DNA from: Cinnamomum chago
Lineage: Eukaryota > Streptophyta > Magnoliopsida > Laurales > Lauraceae
Reading direction: 5' to 3'
DNA: 64,000 nucleotides
NCBI GenBank assembly: GCA_038049695.1
Contig: CP142451.1
Location: 7,934,001 to 7,998,000 of the forward strand
The translations under genes and the position numbers were made by a program. Below the pieces are notes generated by a model. That model was not told where the DNA came from, did no database searches, and saw only the letters and a list, made by a program, of their open reading frames with translations. The number at the start of each line of letters is the position of its first letter. Positions within the stretch are counted from its first letter, which is position 1. Positions 8,131 to 63,659 of this stretch are shown piece by piece.

Positions 8131-8313
8131 ATGAAAGCTTCCTTCTCAATTTCGATCAATAGATCATGGCGTTGGGGATCCGAGCAGTTGGATGCACGTA
8201 CGTGGTGCACTTCCTGGGAGTGGTGTCGGCAGCTCTGGTGCTCGTCTGGTGCATACACTTCAGAGGAGGCCTTGCCTTCGAGGCCACCAATAAATCCCTC
8301 ATTTTCAATGTAA
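8131..8313 (+). promoter_or_regulatory. Overlapping upstream ORF on the b561 leader
   Basis: An ATG 35 bases before the b561 start opens a 60-codon frame in a different phase that runs past the main ATG and ends just beyond the exon 1 donor. If the transcript starts upstream of 8131, as the purine-rich leader suggests, scanning ribosomes would meet this ATG first. The peptide shows no recognisable domain, so any effect would be on translation. It could also be silent if the mRNA starts later. Confidence 0.4.
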
Positions 8314-11300
8314 TGTGTTCAAATGCTTTTAATTTTAATTAACTGCCATCATGTAATGTAGATGTTTCGGGGGTCACTCTTCGGATCACCTATCATAGTT
8401 GTTATACTTTCGTGAGTAGGCTAATAATAGTCCGCCACGTCATCCAAAAAATTCGGTGATTTTGAAGTTTAAAAAAATTTAAATTAGATGAAAGGAAATT
8501 ACCTAAATTTTTGGATGACGTGGCAAACTGTTATTGGTCTACTCATGGTGAAGGTGTAATATCTGCGATAGGTGATCCAGACTCTTTTGTCGTTGTGTAA
8601 TGTGCGGGCCCGAGACAAATTATATATATATAATAGGGGCTTTTGGCGGTAGGTCCCTCATCATTTGCTTTTATAGCCTAAGGTCTACAATATTTTATTA
8701 TACCGGCAGCAGTCCTCTTATGAAAATGACACAGTGAAAAAGACAAAAAGACCCATATACACGTCAGCAAAAAGGTTTCGCTTAAAACCGCTTGAAACCA
8801 TTTCAGAGAAGCAAAAATCAGATTCATCTGAATCGCAGAAGCAAAAAGCGAAGCCGAAGGAAACTGCGAAACCTATAAGTAAATTCAACTGATCAAGGAC
8901 CTCCATCATCTGAATCGTCTTCACTTGGTTAGAAAAAGTACTTCTTTCATTCCTAAAAAGATGTACAAGATAATTTCTTTTGAAAAAAACCAAAAAACCT
9001 AATTTGATTTCGTTCTTCTCTGATTTTATCTATTCTTTATTCTCAACTCTATATAGACAATGGCTAGAACAAACCTCAATTCAAGAGAAAAAACAAGCGA
9101 AAGTCAGATAAATTTGTTCGAAACTCAGATAAATTTATTCGAAACTCAGAAAAGTTGTTCAAAACTTAGATAAATTTATCTGAGTTTTGCCAAAAGTTCA
9201 GGTAAGTTTGCCAAAAACTCAGATAAATTTGGCAAATTTATCTGAGTTTTCGTCCAGTTTATCAAAGTTTCTGTTAAATTTATTTGAGCTCGGCGACACC
9301 AAAAGTCAAAATACGAAAAATCAGATTCTAATAAAAATCGAAATCCAAAACAAAAACACTTGATGACCATAATCCAATCGAGAAGAGAGAGAGAGAGAGA
9401 ACAAGCAAAAGAGCAAACTGCTCTATTTCAAATCAGTTATAGAGAGAGAGATTTGAAAGAGATTTTAGATCAAAGAGTAAGAGAAAGTAAAAGTGTTTCT
9501 ATCTTTGAAGAAATGAAAGAGAGAGAATTGGAAGTCATGGTGGCGACAGAAGATGCTTTGCAACGGTACTCCATAACCATGGGAAGGAACTAAAAATGGA
9601 AAATGAGAGAAAAGAAGACGGAAGGAGTGAGAATAAGAGAGAACTTGGCCTAGGAATGAGAGTTGACAGGGGCAAATTAGTCATGAAAATATATGACATA
9701 ACGAATTAGGAACCTCTCACAAAAATATCTCCAGCTCTCTGGACTATAAACATTAGAGAAAAAGTTGTTGGACTGGATGCCTTAGAAGACCGTGCTTAGC
9801 GACTGTTGGCTAATAAATAACTATTATTGTGCATCGCCTCCCCCTTCTTCAATGTACTGTGGGACCCACCTTTTTGAGATCCAAGACGCTCATTAGCTCT
9901 AGCACCCATTATAGTAGTTGTTCCTAGATTTTCAAAAATGATTTTAGTGGGCCAATCGTAGGATTAATCACACATGAGGGATTCCTTCCATTTTTATCCC
10001 AAACCATAAAAACTGCTAGAAGTTCGTAACCTATTTCAATATAGGAAAATCCAATAGGTGGCCATCTTACATATTTGAAAAATAATTTGCGAGTTGATCA
10101 TCACATAGGATGATAGGACTAATGAGCAGCTCAGATTCTGGAGAAGGGGGATGCACATACTAGAATGCATCCATGGTGCATTGTAGCCCACCCTGTGGAA
10201 AAAAAATAAAAATCATTAAACCGACCCCAAATAAATGGGATAAGGTTACAGGTTGAAACGATGACAACTAATTTATACTTAACATAAATCTTAAGACAGG
10301 CTTAATCCCAAGGCCTCTATGGCCAAGTCCGTTAAATTTTCAGGCTGAATATTAGTGGGCTGGTCTTGCAATGAACTCTGCTGGCTCACCCTCCACCAAA
10401 ATCTGCAACCACCCCGGAGATATTTCTTATGATACTGTGCTAGAAACAGTGATTTTCATGGAGTTACTATCTACTTTATGGGTATTAATCTTCTGTGCTA
10501 AATTGCAGATACATCCAGTTTTGACACTAATTGGCTTTATTGTATTTGGAGGTGAAGGCAAGTAGATTAAAACCAACTTAACCCTTTCAGTAGTTTTGAT
10601 TTATTTTTCTCAAGATTGACATGATGTCCTCTCTGTCTCTCCTCTTGATAAATGCAGCAATAATCAGTTACAAAACATGGCCATTGAGGAAAGAAGTGAA
10701 GAAGCTGTTTCATCTAATTCTTCACGCAGTTGCCCTTACACTTGGTGCCATCGGTACCTATGCCGTCTTCAAATATCACAATGAGAAAGGGATTGCTAAC
10801 CTTTACAGTTTACATTCCTGGACTGGGCTGGGAACCATCTGTTTGTATGCCATTCAGGTAACTAGTAATTGCAATTACAGTAGTAAAGCATCAGCGCTAA
10901 GCCACTAACAGAATAATCTGTCTGGCCGAGTCAAATTGGTGCATCAACGAGATAGATGAGTTAACTGAATTCCAGCTATAACTTGTCTAGACTGAGTTCA
11001 AGCCGACTCAGACACCCAGTATGTAATTGGGTTGAGTCATCTTGGCTGAGTTCATAATGGACCCACCAGGTCAAGGAATCATAGAAGTTCACCCACTATG
11101 GTCACTACTACAAAGGCATTGTAGGAGCTGAAGCAGAGTACTTGTCTGTTTTCACACATCAATGTTTTTTACAGCACATTTGGCTTTTATTCTTGGGCCT
11201 GCTTGGGAAATTCTTCTTAACTGTTAAAGAGTTTGTAGTAAAGAGGCTTTTGGCAAAGGATGAAGAAGATTGAATCACCTAATCTTAAGATAACTCTAAT

Positions 11301-14300
11301 CACTTCATAACTAAAATCTCTTGGATAGATATCCTTATCACATGATTACTGCGAACCTACTACCAATAACATCCTAAATCTAATCTAATCCTAGTTTAGG
11401 ATGAACTCATCCTTGTAATAACATATCCAAGCTTATGTACAATATTCTCATTTTTGAACACCTGTAATACCTGGGCCAGAATAGGCCCCAGATCTATCTG
11501 ACCCATAAGCTAGTGGGCTGGGTTAGGTTGTTTGGACCTATTTCTAACCCACTAGGACCCATGTGTGTAGTTAAGTTGTTAGAAACAACTTCCCTGATAG
11601 AGGGGAATAGATATCTCAATTGGGTAGGGTGGTTCCAACGAGTGATATCTGGGGTTATCCCCAGATGACTTCTTCTTCCCTCTCCTTATTAGTTCTCATA
11701 TTGATCCCCATGAGTTGCAATTGATTTCTAAAGAAGAAGGTAGCAGAGAAGGGAAAGAGGGAACTCTTCTGAAGAGCAACAGAGGCCAATCAAGCTTGTG
11801 GGAAGGAAGAAGAAGCGGGAACGTATAGTGGATGCAGCGATTGAGTTCTCACCTCGACCGTGCTACGATTTACTACACTAGGAGGTGAGTAATCTTTCCA
11901 GTACATAGAATTGTAGATTCTGGTTTATATGTAATCATGTGGTTTATGGATAAAATGAATTCAGTTAAAGGAGGAAATCAGGAACAGAACCTGAATTCTG
12001 CCAGATCTTGGAAATTACATTGGACAGACCAAGATCTGAACTTGTTCAATTTAATCAGTTAGAGATTATTGATGCCTGTGCAATATTGATTTGAGATGTA
12101 ATGATAGATGGGTGTTGATTGGATCAGCAGAGAGGAAACAAGTGAAAAACTCAAGCTAGAGGCTTGGTTTCCAACCCCATCGACAGATACAAGATCTGTC
12201 GATGGGAGTACTGTGATCAAGGGGCCCACCTAATCATGCATCACCACCAGGGATCTGGTAGGGGACCCATGGGCGTCCATTGCCTAGATGGACCCTTGTG
12301 GAGATGGGCCCCACTTTGGCCACAATTGATTCCAAGGGATGGAATGACGTCCAGCCTGGGCGTTGGACGTCTGTAGGGAGATCTAGTAGTGGGACCACGT
12401 GGCCCACTACAGCCTCAATCTGACCCAGGGATCTGGAAGGGGACCCCTGGGCGTCCATAGCCTAGATGGACCCATCCAGGATGGGTCCCATCCAACCACA
12501 CATCATATGCACAAAGTCTCTGCATCGTCACTATTGGGAAATTCTGGAATTTCCATGGTTGGATTGTGGGGCCCACTGGTCCACCTGATCAAGGATCAGG
12601 ACCAGTCACTTACTTGACCCCTGATGGGCGACCAAAGTGACCTGGACCCAGCTTGGGGGGGGGGCCCACCCATTATTTCTTTCTTGTGCAACAGAGACGT
12701 CATTTTTATAGTAACAGTGAATGTCGACATCCATAGTGGGACCCACTATCTGATCCAATCTGAGATTGGGACCTCACATATTGAAGGGGGCTCAGTGACG
12801 ATCTGAATGGTGGTGGTCTCATGTGTCCTGGTCTCCATCTGACTAGTTATCCAGGAACTTCAATATTGTTAGCTGCTATAAAAGGGAATTAGGAAATTTG
12901 GTTGTAACTGTTTGAATAGTGGGGCCCAAGAACGATGATTGATGGTAAATCCAATCCTTTAAGAGTAGAGCCTACCACTAGGTGACCTTAAACAGTAGGT
13001 CTAATCTTGATTTGGACCATTAGGATTCACTATTTCTTATCATCCAAAATACTGGGAGTGAGAACTACTGTATAATAGTGAGGAACAGTGTCTGTCAATC
13101 CAACATAGTAATAACAGAGTACATATCCAATACTACCAAAGACCAAATATTGTCAACTACTTTGAGATGAACCCCAAGGACTTCTTTCATGATTATTATA
13201 AGTACAGAAACATTATCTGTATCAGGTAGTGTTCCAAGAGTTATAACTAACTGTTATTCATACAAATTTTGTATAGGCTGGGTATTCTTATGTGGGACTG
13301 TTGGAGTTATATACCTCCAAGTTATATATTATTAAGTACATAGTTTGATAAATTTGAAACATGTTATTGGTTTATGAAGGAATACTCAAGTTAACAGGGT
13401 AAACTCTAAAACTAATAATAATTATGTTGTTAGTTTAGACCCTATTAACATCACAGAATTAGAATAAACATGGGATTAGTACACAAAGAGGGTACTAAAT
13501 GTTGATATTAAAGTGGGGCCTTATTCATCCCGATATTGTGGAACTAATCTTATGTTAATATAATATAATTGGTGTGTAAAAATCCCTTGATAATGTTATT
13601 GAACGCATAATGAAATTACGCGAATTAATGAATTCGCTTAGGAGAATATTTGCTACAAATTTATATGAAACAGTGATATCTTATTGGAATGACAGAAAGG
13701 AGCCTTGCTCCTGAGTTTATTGAATCGAACACTGAACCCTGAAGGGTTAGGAGGAATAAGGTTGGACTGGGACTGAACTACCATTTGCGCAATGGACTCC
13801 ATTGTTAGGAGTTTTGAATGTATTACATAAGAACTTTCTCCCGGAAGGGACTGAAGTATTGAAACTCTGTGGTTAGAGTTCTATTATAAGAACCCATAAC
13901 TTGGGAATTCAGAACCTATCAAAGTTACAGACTGACTATGCTCCCTTATGTATTAACCAATAAGAACCATTTATGAAATCTGTTATTTATCGAGTGAATG
14001 CTTCCGCACTTTTGTTAGTTTATTATTTTATAAATGAACTGTGTATGTGGTAATATTACTCACCAGACTTCTGATAAGTGATTTGCCCCACCACAGGTAT
14101 GCACCGTTTGGGGGAGCGTGGCAACGGAGATAATCAGCCATTGGACTTCAATATGCGTGGCTGATAAGAGAGCGTCTAAATGAAACCGAACTAGATATCA
14201 GTTTATTTCTTTAATAAATGTTGAAGTTCTAGGATTTTGATTGAAAGACTTATTTATGTTTCATGTCTAGTTAAATTGATTCCTCAAATAAATCTTTTCG

Positions 14301-17300
14301 TTGCTCAGTTCCTTGTTTTAATTTGATTTATGAATGATTTGGATTCTTTTTAGTAAGACCCGGGATCCTGATGAGCTCCGGGATTCGGGGTGTTACAAAG
14401 TGGTATCAGAGCATGGTCTTGAGCAATATAAAAATCTTAGCAACCCTTAGGATACGTGGTGAGGACGCTATAAGGGGGAAATTAGTAAGATAGAAGTTCA
14501 CTGTCTATGATGATATGCTAAATTGTGACTCCTTTTGTAGGAGAAAGAACATGAACAACCAAGAGAACTCTCAGAACGTCAATGACGGCCAAAATGAGAA
14601 TGTGAACATAAATAACAATGAGGGCATTAATCCAAACCTTATTGGGGGACAAGCTGAACTGCCAGAATATGCTCGACAGATGTTCGCATCATTCATGATG
14701 GCCTACAGTCAGGTGCAGGAACAAATTGCGACCTTGGCAGCACGTCAAGGAGGGAGTAATGATGCTCACACAGGCACAAGCAATGAAGGAAGTGGAACTA
14801 TTGCTGGAGGCAGAGACAGAGAAAGAGACACCTTATACAAACGGTTTAATGAGTTCCGACCCAAGAGTTTCGAGGAAACCTCCAATCCTTGGGACGCTAA
14901 TAAATGGGTGGAACACATGGAGGGGATATTTGAAGTGATGGGGTGCCCGGACAGACAGAAAGCAATCTTGGCCGCTTTCAAACTGGAAGGGGATGCAAAG
15001 GAGTGGTGGAAGGCCGCAAAGAAAACCTTCGAAGGTCCAGAGAATGAAATCACCTGGGCATTCTTTAAGAAGGAATTCATTTTGAAATTCATTCCGGAGC
15101 ATATCAGAGAAAGGAAGAAGAGAGAATTTCAGAATTTGGTACAAGGAGATATGACCGTAGCAAAGTACTCCAATAGATTTACAGAATTGTCTCACTTTGC
15201 AGAGGAGTTGATAGCCACTGATGAGATGAAGCGGAACAAATTCATCGAAGGGCTACGACCAGACATCAAGAAAGATGTGAAACTGGGTGAACCTGCTACC
15301 TTTGCAGCTGCTTTAAAGAGAGCCTTTATATCAGAAGAAACGACTGCCGAAATGAACGGGACGGTCCCGGCTAAGGCAACAGGGGCTAAGAGAGACCACC
15401 AAGGCAACCGTGCGCCATCAAAGAAGCAGAAACTGGATAGGAAGGTAAAATGCCAGCGGTGTGGGAAGAATCATAACACTGAAGAGTGCCATTGGTCTAC
15501 AGGTGCATGTTTTGCGTGCGGCCAGGTTGGTCACCTTATCAAGGATTGTCCAAAGAAACAGGATAAGGACAGACGACAGCAGTCAGAACAGCCACCACGG
15601 CAGAATCAACAGCAAGGGTACCACGGCAATCCCCGCTCGGCCAATCAGCAGAATCCACCAGCAAGAAATCAGTACAATGCCCAGAACCAGCAAAACCAGC
15701 CTAGGGGACCACCGAATCAGCCCCAAGGACAGAACTTTAACCGTGGTCGACCCAATCAGGGCGGACATCAAAGGAGGCAGCAACAACCTGAGGCTAGGAT
15801 TCTTGCCATTACTCAACAAGAAGCTCAAGCCGCCAATGATGTGGTGGAGGGTATGATTCTAATTTCTAATGTTGAAGCTTATACTTTATTTGATTCGGGC
15901 GCTACACATTCCTTTGTGTCATCTGTATTTGCTTCCAGAATGAATAGGCCACCCTCTACACTAGATCCACCAATTTCAGTAGCAACTCCCACTGGAGGAC
16001 ACTTGAACACTTGCACAATATTTTATAATTGTTCCCTGAACATTGGGGGAGTAAATATGCCGGTTGATTTGATCATGTTACCCATGAATGATTTTGATAT
16101 CATCTTGGGAATGGATTGGCTAGCAAAGTATAGGGCAATATTGGACTGTTTTAACAAACAGGTCCGCTTTAATTTGGAAGGGTTCGAAGATGTGTGTGTA
16201 CCAGGAAGGAGAAGGTCGATACACACGGCAGTCATCTCGGCAGTTAGGGCTTGTGAATTATTGAGGAGTGGATGTGATGGGTATCTTGCCTTTGTTACAG
16301 GAGAAAAGCAGAAACCGGGACTGGGAGAAATTCCCGTAATCTGTGAATTTCCTGATGTGTTTCAGGAAGATCTGCCCGGTTTGCCACCGATTCGGGAAGT
16401 GGACTTTGCCATAGAACTGGTACCGGGGACCGCGCCAATTTCCAGAGCTCCATATCGTATGGCGCCTACTGAGTTGAAAGAACTCAAAGAACAATTGCAA
16501 GAATTACTGGAAAAGGGGTTCATTAGACCCAGCGTCTCTCCATGGGGTGCACCAGTTTTGTTTGTTAAGAAGAAAGACGGGTCCTTACGAATGTGTATCG
16601 ACTATCGTCAGTTGAATCAGGTCACCATCAAGAATAAGTACCCACTTCCACGTATTGATGAACTATTTGATCAACTGCAGGGTGCGAAATATTTCTCGAA
16701 GATTGATCTCCGGTCGGGATATCATCAGTTAAGGGTAAAGGAAGGAGATATACCTAAGACAGCTTTTCGAACTAGGTATGGGCACTATGAGTTTCTGGTA
16801 ATGCCTTTTGGGCTAACTAATGCGCCAGCGGTGTTCATGGCGTTAATGAACCAGATCTTTAAACCATACTTAGACCAATTTGTGGTGGTATTCATAGATG
16901 ATATACTCATCTACTCTAAGTCAAAGGAAGATCATGGGGATCACTTGCGCACTTCTCTTAACCTGTTGAGAGAAAACCAGCTCTATGCTAAGCTGAGTAA
17001 GTGCGACTTCTGGCTAGATCAAGTGAGCTTTTTAGGCCATGTCATCTCAGGTGAAGGATTGTCCGTAGATTCCAGCAAGATCGAAGCTGTCACCAATTGG
17101 AAGAGACCAGCGACTGTATCTGAAATCCGTAGTTTCCTTGGGCTAGCAGGTTACTACAGAAGATTTGTGCAAGGTTTTTCTTCTATAGCAGGTCCTTTGA
17201 CCCGACTTACTCGGAAGGACGTGCCATTCATTTGGGATGAGAGATGTGAAGCAAGTTTCCAAAGGCTAAAAGATAAGTTAACTACAGCTCCAGTCTTAGC

Positions 17301-20300
17301 TCTACCCTCTGGCAACGGCGGTTTTGTGATATTCTGTGATGCCTCACTGAATGGTCTAGGATGCGTGCTCATGCAGCATGGCAGGGTAATTGCCTACGCA
17401 TCACGACAGTTGAAATCACATGAACAGAATTATGCCACTCATGATCTAGAACTGGCTGCTGTGGTTTTTGCACTCAAGATCTGGCGACACTATTTGTATG
17501 GAGAAAAATTTGAAGTCTATACAGATCACAAAAGCTTGAAATATGTGTTCACTCAAAAGGATTTGAATCTACGGCAGAGAAGGTGGATGGAATTTCTGAA
17601 GGATTATGACTTCTCTATCTTTTACCATCCAGGTAAAGCAAATGTTGTGGCCGATGCTTTAAGCAGGAAATCTGCGCAGATGACTTCGTTAACAGCAGAG
17701 AAGACATCCGCGGAGGAAGTCGGAAATCTGAATGTAAACCTCGAGGCGACCAGCCAAAAAGTATTATTGGGGAACTTCAGTGTTCAGCCTGAGTTGATCC
17801 AAAGGGTCAAAGATCGCCAGAGAGACGACCCAGCATTAGTGGAGATATTCGATAAGAAGGATAACAAGCCTGAGTTTTCCATCATCAATGGTACATTATA
17901 CTTCCGGAATAGGCTTTGTGTCCCAAACATTCAAACAATTAAGGATGAAATTATGAAGGAGGCACATTGCACACGTTACACCATCCATCCGGGGAGCACC
18001 AAAATGTACCAAAATCTGAAGATAAGGTTTTGGTGGGTTGGTATGAAGAATGACGTTGCTGAGTTTGTGGGTCGGTGTTTCACCTGTCAACAAGTAAAGG
18101 CTGATCACAGGAAGCCTGGAGGGTTACTCCAGCCATTACCGATACCCGAATGGAAATGGGAACATATTTCAATGGACTTTGTGTCAGGTTTTCCAAGGAC
18201 GGTTCGGAACAATGAAGTCATTTGGGTGATCGTCGACCGGTTGACAAAGTCGGCGCATTTCCTTCCCATTAAAAACAAGACTACTATGGAGTACTTGGCA
18301 CAGAGATATGTGAAGGAAATTGTGAGGTTGCACGGTGTACCTGTATCAATAGTTTCTGACCGAGATACGAGATTTGTGTCAAATTTTTGGAAGAAGCTTC
18401 AAGCAGCAATGGGTACTAAATTGCGATTCAGTACGGCATATCATCCGCAGACTGATGGGCAAACAGAAAGGACTAATCAGACCCTTGAAGATATGCTAAG
18501 GGCTTGTGCTCTGGACTTCAAAGATAGCTGGGATGAACAGTTGTCACTTATTGAGTTTGCTTATAATAACAGCTATCATTCTAGTATCAAAATGGCGCCG
18601 TTCGAAGCACTCTATGGGCGAAACTGTCGATCCCCAATTTGCTGGGAAGAGGTTGGCGATGGGAGAATACTTGGTCCCGACTGGGTTCAAGCTTCCACCG
18701 TCAATATCAAGAAAATCAGAGACAGAATGCGAGCAGCTCAGAGCAGACAGAAAAGTTATGCAGATAACCGGCGGAGAGAACTGGAATTTGCAGTGGGTGA
18801 TTATGTATTTCTTAAAGTTTCTCCGACTAAGGGCATCATGCGGTTTGGCAAGAAGGGAAAATTGAGTCCTCGGTATGTTGGACCATTTGAAATCATTGGC
18901 CGTGTCAGCGATGGCAACGCTTATGCTCTTGGTCTACCACCGCAATTAGCTGGAGTACACAATGTGTTTCATGTGTCCATGCTTAGGAAATATCAGCCTG
19001 ATCCTTCTCATGTGATAAACTATGACTCGATACAGTTGCAGTCAGATTTATCCTATGAAGAACGGCCGGTGAAGATCCTTGAAACTAAGAAGAGAACTCT
19101 GCGGAACAGGACAATAGAACTAGTCAAAGTTCTGTGGGAACATCATAACCAGCTTGAATCTACTTGGGAGGTAGCCGATGAGTTCAGGAAGAAGCACCCC
19201 CACCTTTTTCTACCAGGTATGTGCTCAATTTGGAGGACCAAATTTACTAAGGGGGGGAGTATGTAATACCTGGGCCAGAATAGGCCCCAGATCTATCTGA
19301 CCCATAAGCTAGTGGGCTGGGTTAGGTTGTTTGGACCTATTTCTAACCCACTAGGACCCATGTGTGTAGTTAAGTTGTTAGAAACAACTTCCCTGATAGA
19401 GGGGAATAGATATCTCAATTGGGTAGGGTGGTTCCAACGAGTGATATCTGGGGTTATCCCCAGATGACTTCTTCTTCCCTCTCCTTATTAGTTCTCATAT
19501 TGATCCCCATGAGTTGCAATTGATTTCTAAAGAAGAAGGTAGCAGAGAAGGGAAAGAGGGAACTCTTCTGAAGAGCAACAGAGGCCAATCAAGCTTGTGG
19601 GAAGGAAGAAGAAGCGGGAACGTATAGTGGATGCAGCGATTGAGTTCTCACCTCGACCGTGCTACGATTTACTACACTAGGAGGTGAGTAATCTTTCCAG
19701 TACATAGAATTGTAGATTCTGGTTTATATGTAATCATGTGGTTTATGGATAAAATGAATTCAGTTAAAGGAGGAAATCAGGAACAGAACCTGAATTCTGC
19801 CAGATCTTGGAAATTACATTGGACAGACCAAGATCTGAACTTGTTCAATTTAATCAGTTAGAGATTATTGATGCCTGTGCAATATTGATTTGAGATGTAA
19901 TGATAGATGGGTGTTGATTGGATCAGCAGAGAGGAAACAAGTGAAAAACTCAAGCTAGAGGCTTGGTTTCCAACCCCATCGACAGATACAAGATCTGTCG
20001 ATGGGAGTACTGTGATCAAGGGGCCCACCTAATCATGCATCACCACCAGGGATCTGGTAGGGGACCCATGGGCGTCCATTGCCTAGATGGACCCTTGTGG
20101 AGATGGGCCCCACTTTGGCCACAATTGATTCCAAGGGATGGAATGACGTCCAGCCTGGGCGTTGGACGTCTGTAGGGAGATCTAGTAGTGGGACCACGTG
20201 GCCCACTACAGCCTCAATCTGACCCAGGGATCTGGAAGGGGACCCCTGGGCGTCCATAGCCTAGATGGACCCATCCAGGATGGGTCCCATCCAACCACAC

Positions 20301-23001
20301 ATCATATGCACAAAGTCTCTGCATCGTCACTATTGGGAAATTCTGGAATTTCCATGGTTGGATTGTGGGGCCCACTGGTCCACCTGATCAAGGATCAGGA
20401 CCAGTCACTTACTTGACCCCTGATGGGCGACCAAAGTGACCTGGACCCAGCTTGGGGGGGGGGCCCACCCATTATTTCTTTCTTGTGCAACAGAGACGTC
20501 ATTTTTATAGTAACAGTGAATGTCGACATCCATAGTGGGACCCACTATCTGATCCAATCTGAGATTGGGACCTCACATATTGAAGGGGGCTCAGTGACGA
20601 TCTGAATGGTGGTGGTCTCATGTGTCCTGGTCTCCATCTGACTAGTTATCCAGGAACTTCAATATTGTTAGCTGCTATAAAAGGGAATTAGGAAATTTGG
20701 TTGTAACTGTTTGAATAGTGGGGCCCAAGAACGATGATTGATGGTAAATCCAATCCTTTAAGAGTAGAGCCTACCACTAGGTGACCTTAAACAGTAGGTC
20801 TAATCTTGATTTGGACCATTAGGATTCACTATTTCTTATCATCCAAAATACTGGGAGTGAGAACTACTGTATAATAGTGAGGAACAGTGTCTGTCAATCC
20901 AACATAGTAATAACAGAGTACATATCCAATACTACCAAAGACCAAATATTGTCAACTACTTTGAGATGAACCCCAAGGACTTCTTTCATGATTATTATAA
21001 GTACAGAAACATTATCTGTATCAGGTAGTGTTCCAAGAGTTATAACTAACTGTTATTCATACAAATTTTGTATAGGCTGGGTATTCTTATGTGGGACTGT
21101 TGGAGTTATATACCTCCAAGTTATATATTATTAAGTACATAGTTTGATAAATTTGAAACATGTTATTGGTTTATGAAGGAATACTCAAGTTAACAGGGTA
21201 AACTCTAAAACTAATAATAATTATGTTGTTAGTTTAGACCCTATTAACATCACAGAATTAGAATAAACATGGGATTAGTACACAAAGAGGGTACTAAATG
21301 TTGATATTAAAGTGGGGCCTTATTCATCCCGATATTGTGGAACTAATCTTATGTTAATATAATATAATTGGTGTGTAAAAATCCCTTGATAATGTTATTG
21401 AACGCATAATGAAATTACGCGAATTAATGAATTCGCTTAGGAGAATATTTGCTACAAATTTATATGAAACAGTGATATCTTATTGGAATGACAGAAAGGA
21501 GCCTTGCTCCTGAGTTTATTGAATCGAACACTGAACCCTGAAGGGTTAGGAGGAATAAGGTTGGACTGGGACTGAACTACCATTTGCGCAATGGACTCCA
21601 TTGTTAGGAGTTTTGAATGTATTACATAAGAACTTTCTCCCGGAAGGGACTGAAGTATTGAAACTCTGTGGTTAGAGTTCTATTATAAGAACCCATAACT
21701 TGGGAATTCAGAACCTATCAAAGTTACAGACTGACTATGCTCCCTTATGTATTAACCAATAAGAACCATTTATGAAATCTGTTATTTATCGAGTGAATGC
21801 TTCCGCACTTTTGTTAGTTTATTATTTTATAAATGAACTGTGTATGTGGTAATATTACTCACCAGACTTCTGATAAGTGATTTGCCCCACCACAGGTATG
21901 CACCGTTTGGGGGAGCGTGGCAACGGAGATAATCAGCCATTGGACTTCAATATGCGTGGCTGATAAGAGAGCGTCTAAATGAAACCGAACTAGATATCAG
22001 TTTATTTCTTTAATAAATGTTGAAGTTCTAGGATTTTGATTGAAAGACTTATTTATGTTTCATGTCTAGTTAAATTGATTCCTCAAATAAATCTTTTCGT
22101 TGCTCAGTTCCTTGTTTTAATTTGATTTATGAATGATTTGGATTCTTTTTAGTAAGACCCGGGATCCTGATGAGCTCCGGGATTCGGGGTGTTACAACAC
22201 CCTTTTAGGGGTTGCAAGTATGTGCAATATGTTGCCTAGTTTGAAGTAGCTGGGTATCATAGGTTATAAGGGTGTAGGTCTACAGTAGACCATCAAATTC
22301 TAAAGATTTAATTTCATATGCTTATGATTTTCCTGGAAAGGTGGCTTTGATTGAGAGGGATTGGACAATCTTAGCAAGAGAAATAGAGGTGTGGTACTTG
22401 GTCTTAAACATGTTATAGTGAAAAAAAAGTGGAAGGTCAATATTCAAATTAAGTGCTTCATACCCCTTCATACATGAATACGAATTTCAAGTGCACGAAG
22501 AAAAATCTGATGGTTTCTTGCAGATTTAGACCATGATCATTCACCCTTCACCTCTTTGATCAAAGCTCCTCTTCTAAGAAAATCTTTTCAAAGGTGTTTA
22601 TACTTTGTCCATTCTCCAAACGTTTATCATTACAAACTTCTGTTTTCCCTTGTTAATGGGTGTACTTTATGTTGGAATTCCAGTGTATTTTCGGTTTCAT
22701 TGTCTTCTTGTATCCCGGCACAGCAGAGTCTGTCCGAGGAGAGGTGCTTCCTTGGCACATATTGTTTGGGCTCTTGGTGTATGCATTGGCTGTGATCTCA
22801 ACTGAGCTGGGGTTCTTGGAGAAACTCACCTTTCTTGAGAAGTCAGGGCTCAACAAGTACGGGCCTGAGGCCTTTCTTGTCAACTTCATGGGGTTGATCG
22901 TGTTGCTGTTAGGAGGCGCCGTTGTGTTCTCTGTCATTGCACCTGCCCACACTCAAGACGATAACTTCAGCTATACAGCCATATCAGATGATTTAGCATA
23001 A
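8166..23001 (+). CDS. CYB561: Cytochrome b561, transmembrane ascorbate ferrireductase type; four exons, 236 aa
   Basis: Exons: 8166-8309, 10509-10557, 10658-10857, 22684-23001. The protein carries electrons from ascorbate across a membrane to monodehydroascorbate or Fe(III) through two b hemes. The core covers about residues 10-220 with six predicted membrane helices. Four heme-ligand histidines are in place with family spacing: H50 ([11 protein letters not shown]), H83 (KLFHLILH), H117 (YSLHSW) and H156 (LPWHILFG), pairing H50/H117 and H83/H156. Other hallmarks are [17 protein letters not shown] and a short polar tail [12 protein letters not shown]. Intron 1 is 2.2 kb. Intron 2 is only 100 bp and appears to use a GC donor. 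Intron 3 is 11.8 kb because a whole LTR retroelement sits in it; without that insertion it would be about 1.1 kb. Residue 132, first of exon 4, is Cys where I recall Trp in relatives. The length matches the family (about 220-240). An overlapping upstream ORF precedes the start. Confidence 0.93.
8375..8592. mobile_element. MITE with long terminal inverted repeats, in b561 intron 1
   Basis: The left half (CTTCGGATCACCTATC, later GAGTAGGCTAATAATAG, then CCACGTCATCCAAAAA) reappears in reverse complement in the right half (TTTTTGGATGACGTGG, then CTGTTATTGGTCTACTC, then GATAGGTGATCCAGA). The arms are about 90-95 bases around a short AT-rich centre. No clean target duplication was identified, so the superfamily is open. 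Confidence 0.7.
9100..9262. repeat. Cluster of direct and inverted ACTCAGATAAATTT motifs
   Basis: The 14-mer ACTCAGATAAATTT or a close variant occurs about five times, spaced roughly 20-50 bases, and its reverse complement AAATTTATCTGAGT occurs at least twice. Adjacent copies in opposite orientation can form short hairpins. It lies in b561 intron 1 and has no coding content. Confidence 0.6.
9380..9400. repeat. (GA)n microsatellite
   Basis: A short GA run inside a purine-rich stretch of b561 intron 1. Confidence 0.7.
10205..10272 (+). mobile_element. Possible RTE-type LINE 3' end fragment
   Basis: The words GACCCCAAATAAATGGGATAAGG followed by a short degenerate tail resemble the 3' ends of plant RTE LINEs, which often read CCCCAACT...TGGGACAAGG. 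The same type of end appears at about 51350-51445 and 59280-59345. It is short and decayed. Confidence 0.38.
10552..10563 (+). other. GC-type splice donor of b561 intron 2 with a competing GT donor
   Basis: Exon 2 must join the exon starting at 10658 so as to read GGEAIISYK. That places the donor at GAAG|GCAAGT (intron starting 10558), the strong consensus of GC-AG introns. A canonical GT donor six bases earlier, GGAG|GTGAAG (intron starting 10552), is also in frame but removes Gly-Glu from the GGEA motif. The next GT (GGCAA|GTAGAT) would shift the frame. Confidence 0.72.
11463..14397 (+). repeat. 5' LTR of the Ty3/gypsy element
   Basis: It starts TGTAATACCTGGG and ends GGGGTGTTACA. It matches 19262-22196 at a constant offset of 7,799, with no length change. 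An internal direct repeat is present: the block with GGGACCC(A/C)(T/C)GGGCGTCCAT followed by CCTAGATGGACCC occurs near 12258 and again near 12436. Confidence 0.95.
12877..12884 (+). promoter_or_regulatory. TATA-like box in the LTR
   Basis: TATAAAAG occurs here and at the matching position 20676-20683 of the 3' LTR. It is the best core-promoter candidate in the LTR by sequence; no start site is known. Confidence 0.45.
14401..14412 (+). other. Primer-binding site, initiator tRNA-Met type
   Basis: TGGTATCAGAGC stands three bases after the 5' LTR. It is the usual plant complement to the 3' end of initiator tRNA-Met and fixes the LTR boundary. Confidence 0.9.
14515..19266 (+). CDS. Gag-Pol polyprotein of the Ty3/gypsy element
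   Basis: A single frame of 1,583 codons. Rough residue positions: retrotransposon Gag domain 105-290; zinc knuckle about 331-345; Gln/Pro-rich linker to about 420; aspartic protease around 459 (motif DSGATHSF); reverse transcriptase about 660-840 with the FIDD box at 793; RNase H about 935-1055; integrase zinc-binding region about 1150-1195, then the catalytic core about 1210-1330; C-terminal chromodomain-like segment from about 1515. Gag and Pol are fused in one frame, as in many plant chromoviruses. The frame closes just inside the 3' LTR, its last codons spanning the polypurine tract and the first LTR bases. The element looks whole at this level. Open frames on the opposite strand across this region are shadows. 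Confidence 0.95.
19249..19259 (+). other. Polypurine tract
   Basis: AAGGGGGGGAG lies two bases before the 3' LTR TG, the expected place for plus-strand priming. Confidence 0.85.
19262..22196 (+). repeat. 3' LTR of the Ty3/gypsy element
   Basis: Same length and ends as the 5' LTR; directly followed by the ACACC target duplication. Confidence 0.95.
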
Positions 23002-62543: not shown

Positions 62544-63170
62544 CACTACAAGCAATTTAGGCTATTGTGACGAAATTTGATGACGAATTTTTTTTTTGTC
62601 TTAAAAGAACACCCAAAGAGGACGAAATATAAATTTTGTCGTTTGTTACAATTTTTTTCAAAAGTATAGGAGACGAAAACAAAATTTCTTCTACAAAAAT
62701 ATGGCGCCAACTTGTTTTGTGTTGGCGCCAATTTTTTTAGCTCATTAGAGACGAAAATTGTTGTCACAAAATATAATTTTTTTTGCGACGAACGTAATTC
62801 GTCACCGATAAGGATAAGTTATGAAAGACGAACATATTTCGTCACCAAAATAAGGCGCTAATTTCATTTGCTTTGGCGCGGATTATTTTAGCTCATTGGA
62901 GACGAACATTTTTGTCACAAAATATAATTTTTTTTTGTGACGAACTTAATTCGTCACTAATAAGGATAAGTTATGGAAGACGAAAATACTTCGTCACCAA
63001 AATAAGGCGCCAATTTCATTTGTGGGAGCGAATTATTTTAGCTCATTGGAGACGAAAATTTTTATTACAAAATATAATTTGTTTTTGCGACGAATGTAAT
63101 TCGTCACTAATAAGGATAAGTTATGAAAAACGAAAATATTTCGGCCAACAAAATAAGGCGCAAATTTCAT
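62544..63170 (+). mobile_element. Second CACTA-like terminus with 150-bp subterminal tandem repeats
   Basis: CACTACAAGCAATTTAGG at 62544 is a typical CACTA terminal inverted repeat. It is followed by repeated GACGAA and TTCGTC words and by about three tandem units with a period of 150-152 bases (GGATAAGTTATG recurs at 62812, 62964 and 63114). Each unit carries GGCGC, TAGCTCATTGGAGACGAA and AATTCGTCAC. A perfect inverted pair TGGCGCCAAC / GTTGGCGCCA lies at 62702-62711 and 62721-62730. No other end is seen before the window closes. Confidence 0.62.
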
Positions 63171-63659
63171 TCACACTTGAGCATATTCCTCTATTACAAG
63201 TATTACTTTGGAAAAGCCTTTAAAATGACTAAAATGCCCCCCCCGGCCCTAACATCCACCCCCCATCCAACGCCCCTTTTCCAAAATCCATTTCCCCCTT
63301 TGTCCCTCCATCTATCCCGGTCTCTTATTTCCAAAACTCTTTTCCCCCTTTTCTAGAAGAGGAGAGAAGAACCCTTTTCCCCATTTTCCAAAACCCTTTT
63401 CCAACATCTCCCACTTATCGTCTCAGGCAGCAGCCCCATGGCCCATTGGCCCCCATCAATCATCATCACCCTCCATCAACACACGCAATGCAGACCCATC
63501 CCTGATCAGTGATCCCTCTCATCTCTACTTCTCTCAGTCTCTCTCGCCTATAACTCCCAGACGCAGCCACCATCACCAATCATCATCATCTATGCCCATC
63601 ATCCTCCATCCAGGAGTTCGTCCCCACCAGGTACACTTACCTCTCTCAGTCTCTGCTAC

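Follow-up and report, generated by a model that had tools for sequence, protein, structure and literature searches.

The kind of element that we describe here is familiar in both respects, as a young chromovirus within an intron and as a carrier of recombinant LTRs. Several families serve for comparison below, among them ONSEN of Arabidopsis, a Ty1/copia family. Tekay elements, for which Del is described as an alias (PMC6317226), have undeleted LTRs of about 2.6-3 kb in sugar beet, together with a tRNA-Met primer binding site (PBS) and a 5-bp target site duplication (TSD) (PMC3605345). Bongo3 (SCHMIDT), a sugar beet Tekay/Del element of 11,565 bp in total, has LTRs of 2,561 bp that diverge by 0.08%, and one copy is found near a gene; besides this Tekay copy near a gene, a Reina-clade copy lies in an intron (PMC3605345). 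Like the element studied here, Bongo3 has a single gag-pol frame, a tRNA-Met PBS at most 3 bases off the LTR and a 5-bp TSD, whereas the LTRs of our element measure 2,935 bp and show 0 differences, and its site is an intron of a cytochrome b561 gene; the two are likened by description (PMC3605345). A long LTR (>3.2 kb) is also found in Retrosat2 of rice, which has been placed under the Del/Tekay group (PMC6317226) and is possibly still active and dispersed along the chromosomes; Retrosat2 has an extra ORF0 (PMC3485330), whereas among the listed frames of our element none other than gag-pol reaches 150 aa. Tekay is still moving in cotton, where it is mostly pericentromeric (PMC12557855).

The second known aspect is recombination between LTRs. 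Among the centromeric chromoviruses of grasses, new prolific subfamilies likewise came from partial LTR exchange between related subfamilies; those recombinants are CRM elements, whereas ours is Tekay-like and has at least one copy inside a gene (PMC4079200). Old members of ONSEN similarly pass sequence into new copies when pairs of them recombine during replication, which was observed during transposition bursts, whereas our case is a mosaic that is fixed in a subfamily found in nature (PMC5668417). Recombination between LTR subfamilies has likewise given new promoter modules to young subfamilies of HERVH/LTR7, a human endogenous retrovirus with expression data, while our element is known from its sequence (PMC8912925). 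Template switching has been described in Triticeae elements as well (PMC1950507).

In this study we analysed a window of 64,000 nucleotides from Cinnamomum chago, by which we mean the whole stretch of DNA (C1:7934001-7998000), and carried out all genome searches in one assembly of 1.06 Gb and 14 contigs. We consider it probable that the window holds a complete chromovirus, most likely of the Tekay/Del clade, which recently inserted into a b561 intron as part of a burst of one subfamily (here called A) whose founder was a recombinant between a sister subfamily B and a diverged LTR type C.

The element is 10,734 bp long, with an internal part of 4,864 bp, and lies on the forward strand, as do its parts and the exons of its host gene located below. 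Its two LTRs, at 11463 to 14397 (TGTAATAC...GTGTTACA) and, with the same sequence, at 19262 to 22196, have TG...CA ends and enclose a PBS, TGGTATCAGAGC, 3 bases past the 5' LTR (14401 to 14412) and a polypurine tract, AGGGGGGGAG, ahead of the 3' LTR (19250 to 19259). The PBS is of the initiator tRNA-Met type, and we take it to match that tRNA. Together with a TSD, these are the parts of a complete LTR retrotransposon. An earlier note on this DNA had described a very young, whole-looking element with LTRs of exactly 2,935 bases that were identical wherever compared by eye, a perfect 5-bp ACACC duplication and an unbroken Gag-Pol frame, and our analysis bears this out: pairwise comparison of the full LTRs gave 0 differences in 2,935 positions without a gap, as is characteristic of a very young insertion, ACACC stands at 11458 to 11462 and again at 22197 to 22201, and the frame runs open for 1,571 aa from ATG at 14551 to TAA at 19264-19266, the stop codon being bases 3-5 of the 3' LTR. 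Within the LTR we noted an imperfect direct repeat of 89 nt (12207-12295 and 12385-12473, 79% alike, 178 bp apart), which lies left of the recombination point described below. Overlapping repeats of 84-87% identity are found near the right end of the window (62665-63171), and tRNA and Rfam scans of the whole window found nothing.

A Pfam search of the gag-pol product (14551 to 19266), run on five overlapping pieces, gave the order GAG-PR-RT-RH-INT that is typical of Ty3/gypsy elements, with the integrase core rve scoring 29.1 bits, under the Pfam cut-off of 32.6. GAG (PF03732, E 2.2e-20) is encoded at 14968 to 15261 and followed by a zinc knuckle of 14 residues (15508-15549). Next come an aspartic protease (RVP_2, E 1e-39, 15793 to 16173) with its DSG motif within 15886-15903, a reverse transcriptase (RVT_1, 16564 to 17046) with FIDD at 16891-16902, RNase H (RT_RNaseH_2 / RT_RNaseH, 17233 to 17607) and an integrase at 17938 to 18447, consisting of the zinc-binding H2C2 part (E 4e-17) and the rve core (E 1.3e-6). 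An SH3-like integrase part (SH3_Tf2-1, E 2.2e-23) and a C-terminal chromodomain-like segment (Chromo, E 0.0093; 16.3 bits, under the cut-off of 25.1) occupy 18796 to 19206. The closest solved chromodomains match this segment weakly (PDB 2h1e, E 0.056; 2m2l, E 0.089). By eye the cage tryptophan is present and the first and third aromatic residues are absent; type II chromodomains have been described as being without the first and third cage aromatics (PMC6317226). Structure prediction for 73 aa, made from the single sequence without an alignment, gave one long helix and not a chromodomain fold; taken at face value this model would count against the chromodomain reading, and we give it little weight.

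The single gag-pol frame, the tRNA-Met PBS, the 5-bp TSD and the long LTRs are the features of Bongo elements and agree with Tekay, while such features also occur in other clades, LTR length least so. For Reina elements of sugar beet, LTRs of 0.3-0.5 kb are given in the available part of the table (PMC3605345). The earlier assignment to a Tekay/Del-like element fits the frame, domain order, PBS, TSD and LTR of about 3 kb, as well as a C-terminal end that is chromodomain-like. Judged by its sequence, the element most likely is a chromovirus of the Tekay/Del clade; it would be a structurally complete, autonomous-looking Ty3/gypsy element of the chromodomain type, and presumably an active one.

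The host gene was read from the sequence and from a protein match. Exon 1 (8166 to 8309) is followed by exon 2 (10509 to 10557), which probably ends at a GC donor, exon 3 (10658 to 10857, ending CAG|gtaact) and exon 4 (22684 to 23001, starting ttccag|TGT and including the stop codon). The GC donor of intron 2 would lie at 10557-10563 (GAAG|gcaagt); the GT option would lose two residues that are aligned in PDB 4o6y. Spliced from the four exons, the protein has 236 aa, and its residues 12-223 align with 4o6y, a 'probable transmembrane ascorbate ferrireductase 2', at E 3.6e-62. Since this alignment is gap-free across the junction of exons 3 and 4, the element lies in sense within intron 3 (10858 to 22683). 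That intron has 11,826 bp with the element and, after subtraction of 10,734 + 5 bp, 1,087 bp without it, which agrees with the enlargement from about 1.1 to 11.8 kb in the sense direction stated before. Searched against the assembly, the left and right intron flanks each match over their full length at the window alone; for this reason an empty copy of the ACACC site, which we sought across the one assembly, was not found there. It is plausible that some individuals of the species are without the b561 insertion. Part of the left flank (11274-11458) is similar, at 68-93% identity, to sequences dispersed elsewhere and is possibly an old repeat remnant bordering the insertion site.

Searching with LTR and 5' internal DNA queries, we found at least eight full-length copies of subfamily A, matching at nearly 100%, and one 5'-truncated copy; eight is a lower bound because only the best candidates were scored. 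The full-length copies are on C1 (four, window included), C3 (three) and C7 (one) and the truncated one is on C4, a distribution in which we claim no bias. Between the 5' and 3' LTRs of a copy we counted 0, 2, 0, 0, 0, 0, 0 and 1 substitutions, a total of 3 over 8 x 2,935 positions, and one copy has an additional indel in a G run. Relative to the window copy, the seven sisters show 0-3 substitutions over the 4,864 bp of the internal part, and one of them has a 1-base internal insertion that breaks the frame. The copy at C3:22.74 Mb equals the window copy over all 10,734 bp, LTRs and internal part included. Small subgroups exist, with adenine at 19090 in 3/8 copies, and adenine at LTR position 1856 together with cytosine at 19246 in 2/8. 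All this makes the A copies a recent burst of one subfamily.

Near-identical repeats of 10.7 kb are difficult to assemble from short reads, and on that account the A copies might be assembly duplicates, or a collapsed repeat misplaced in the intron. We regard this as extremely unlikely, since every full-length copy stands between flanks of its own and has a perfect 5-bp TSD, different in all eight, since both flanks of the window copy match over their full length at the window only, and since several copies have private variants common to both of their LTRs.

The truncated copy (C4:36.965-36.972 Mb) starts at the equivalent of window position 15901 and has an intact 3' LTR; no TSD was seen. 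Its match at C4:36.97 Mb was considered as a solo LTR and rejected because a polypurine tract lies upstream. Upstream of this copy there is a 145-bp stretch that is about 72% like the pol of the element, in the opposite direction. From the flanks of the seven sister copies, 20 of 121 ORFs of at least 90 aa were searched in Pfam; 14 of the 20 had no match, and the other six matched PPR-DYW, LRR, AAA ATPase, SWIM, a reverse-transcriptase-like domain and, weakly, a GTPase, counts which stand without a random-site baseline and from which we claim no gene preference. Between the stop end of the PPR-DYW frame (L010:3660-5660, minus strand) and the 3' LTR of the copy at C1:101.2 Mb there is about 0.7 kb.

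Substitution rates of 1.3e-8, 7e-9 and 1.5e-9 per site per year were used for dating. At these rates, which are generic values and may not be the host species' own, the zero LTR differences give the window copy 95% upper age bounds of about 39, 73 and 341 thousand years, and the pooled mean ages of the eight A copies are about 5, 9 and 43 thousand years. Because the rates may differ from those of the species, 'very recent' is the one safe statement about the age of the window insertion.

Aligning all 17 LTRs of subfamily A gave 14 columns with substitutions. Three of them split the two LTRs of a copy and would have arisen after insertion, and the other 11 are common to both LTRs and would have arisen before or during insertion, or by conversion. 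These 11 are found in one or two copies each, 10 being private to one copy; one of them adjoins a G run and may be an alignment effect. Pre-insertion events thus make up 10/13 of the private events, more than an equal rate predicts (opportunity 16 vs 8 LTR lengths; binomial P 0.0016), and it seems from this excess that the replicating lineage was the source of most differences between the LTRs of different copies. Conversion of one LTR by another is a known general process and could equally yield the 10 private substitutions that a copy has in both LTRs, so an old insertion with LTRs equalised by conversion might be considered as well. Such conversion would need to have reached the LTR pair of every one of the eight copies and to have spared no more than 3 substitutions in 8 x 2,935 positions; the internal parts, too, hardly vary from locus to locus (0-3 substitutions in 4,864 bp). 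This makes an old insertion a very remote prospect next to a recent one.

Comparison of subfamilies A and B showed that the LTR of A is a mosaic. Its positions 1-1139 are 92% and its positions 2012-2935 89% identical to the B LTR, and the internal parts of A and B are 96.7-97.3% alike. The 872 bp in the middle gave no alignment with B above shuffled sequences (local score 28; maximum of 100 shuffles 28). Outside subfamily A, the two best genomic matches to this middle part reach 88% over nearly the whole length; other matches, mostly partial, range from 74 to 93% among the best 40 of 545 candidates. The two best matches belong to LTRs of the diverged type C. Both read as solo LTRs, flanked by TATAA and AGTAT duplications; the first (TATAA) begins with TT and not with TG. 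A three-way comparison of A, B and C gave 820 informative sites and, as the best segment, LTR 1140-2196: inside it 381/413 informative sites go with C, and outside it 363/407 go with B. The mosaic improves the log-likelihood by 315.8, whereas the highest gain in 200 permutations, scanned on a coarser grid, was 10.6. When the segment was kept constant, the split stayed the same for the other three pairings of copies (2 B x 2 C). Segments of the A LTR have different closest relatives, which is the mark of a recombinant LTR. We describe it as a C-type core in a B-type LTR, with approximate ends at 12602 to 13658 in the 5' LTR and 20401 to 21457 in the 3' LTR.

A TATA-like box, TATAAAA, lies within the core at LTR 1415 (12877 to 12883) and may have a promoter role. 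Further TATA-like sites are found at LTR 1861, also within the recombinant segment, and at 2567; in our judgement TATAAAAG at LTR 1415 is the most canonical of the three. B LTRs carry TATA-like sites too. The A LTR also has the motif AATAAA at LTR 2001, 2751 and 2825, where transcripts might end.

Which of the two subfamilies changed its core was decided by parsimony. C and A have the core in common and B is without it, so it might be possible that A retained an ancestral C-type core and that B is the recombinant. This we consider improbable, because the B core occurs at at least 40 places among the matches listed, with 81-100% identity, some of them in copies close to A: at C5:64.43, C3:115.81, C1:20.08 and C1:28.88, B cores of 88-89% go along with a gag that is 96-97% identical to A. 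The B core therefore appears to be old in this backbone. Recent acquisition by A would also predict that A and C are more alike in the core than around it, and identity is 88.6% in the core against 73.8% and 80.4% in the flanks, the low value of the left flank coming partly from a badly aligned stretch at about LTR 751-1050, the site of the 178-bp-spaced repeat. Thus A, not B, is likely the recombinant. At C9:17.995-18.013 Mb we noted three B-type LTRs with an exact spacing of 7,699 bp, which looks like a tandem element with a common LTR.

A full-length C donor was not found at the six C-core places examined. Beside the two C solo LTRs there is no match to window 14398-15600, three further places show no gag match in the 1.5-2 kb past the LTR end, and the fourth (L061) has just 94 bp past the LTR end, too short to tell. 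As C-type LTRs exist in the genome, the two close ones being the solo LTRs with TATAA and AGTAT, A could have received its core from one of them by recombination or gene conversion at the DNA level and not during reverse transcription. All 17 A LTRs (two from each of the eight full-length copies and that of the truncated copy) carry one and the same core, which is explained most simply if the change arose in replicating RNA or cDNA. In addition, the presumed U3/R boundary falls inside the core, an arrangement that strand transfer in R would permit. Exchange at the DNA level is for these reasons an unlikely origin of the mosaic compared with a change during replication.

We therefore favour a founder of A that was a B-type element which had exchanged its LTR core, and with it the likely core promoter, for the corresponding core of a diverged C-type LTR. 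This probably happened when reverse transcription, near the strand transfer in R, switched templates from one to the other of two RNAs packaged together. Pol II would transcribe the element from the LTR core, Gag particles would enclose two RNAs, reverse transcription would be primed by tRNA-Met, and a one-time template switch during it would have supplied the C core; the integrase would then have carried out integration. Insertion into the b561 gene probably took place in the same ordinary way, by reverse transcription and the 5-bp staggered cuts of the standard integrase mechanism.

New full-length ONSEN insertions in genes of Arabidopsis are mostly spliced out as introns, and new copies are methylated (PMC12112155). 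More than 10% of rice genes contain intronic heterochromatin, and OsIBM2 is involved in their transcription (PMC7145194). In view of these cases, the likeliest outcome in b561 is that the element is spliced out along with the intron, and it is probably silenced by DNA methylation.

Could the new core have driven the burst? A foreign core promoter might have given A a new expression pattern and a burst that is ongoing, with A insertions, that in b561 included, still varying between individuals. We regard this as a speculative extension, more doubtful than not by some distance. B copies also include one with identical LTRs (2,836/2,836 positions; another B-type copy has 15 substitutions in 2,861), so the association of core swap and burst is no more than suggestive. 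In conclusion, the eight A copies record, on a small scale and in a natural setting, a single recent burst in which changes made before insertion, present in both LTRs, can be told from those made after it, present in one. The swap of the LTR core can be dated to before the burst of A, and the b561 site offers a clean place to study how a gene copes with a new intronic element of 10.7 kb.
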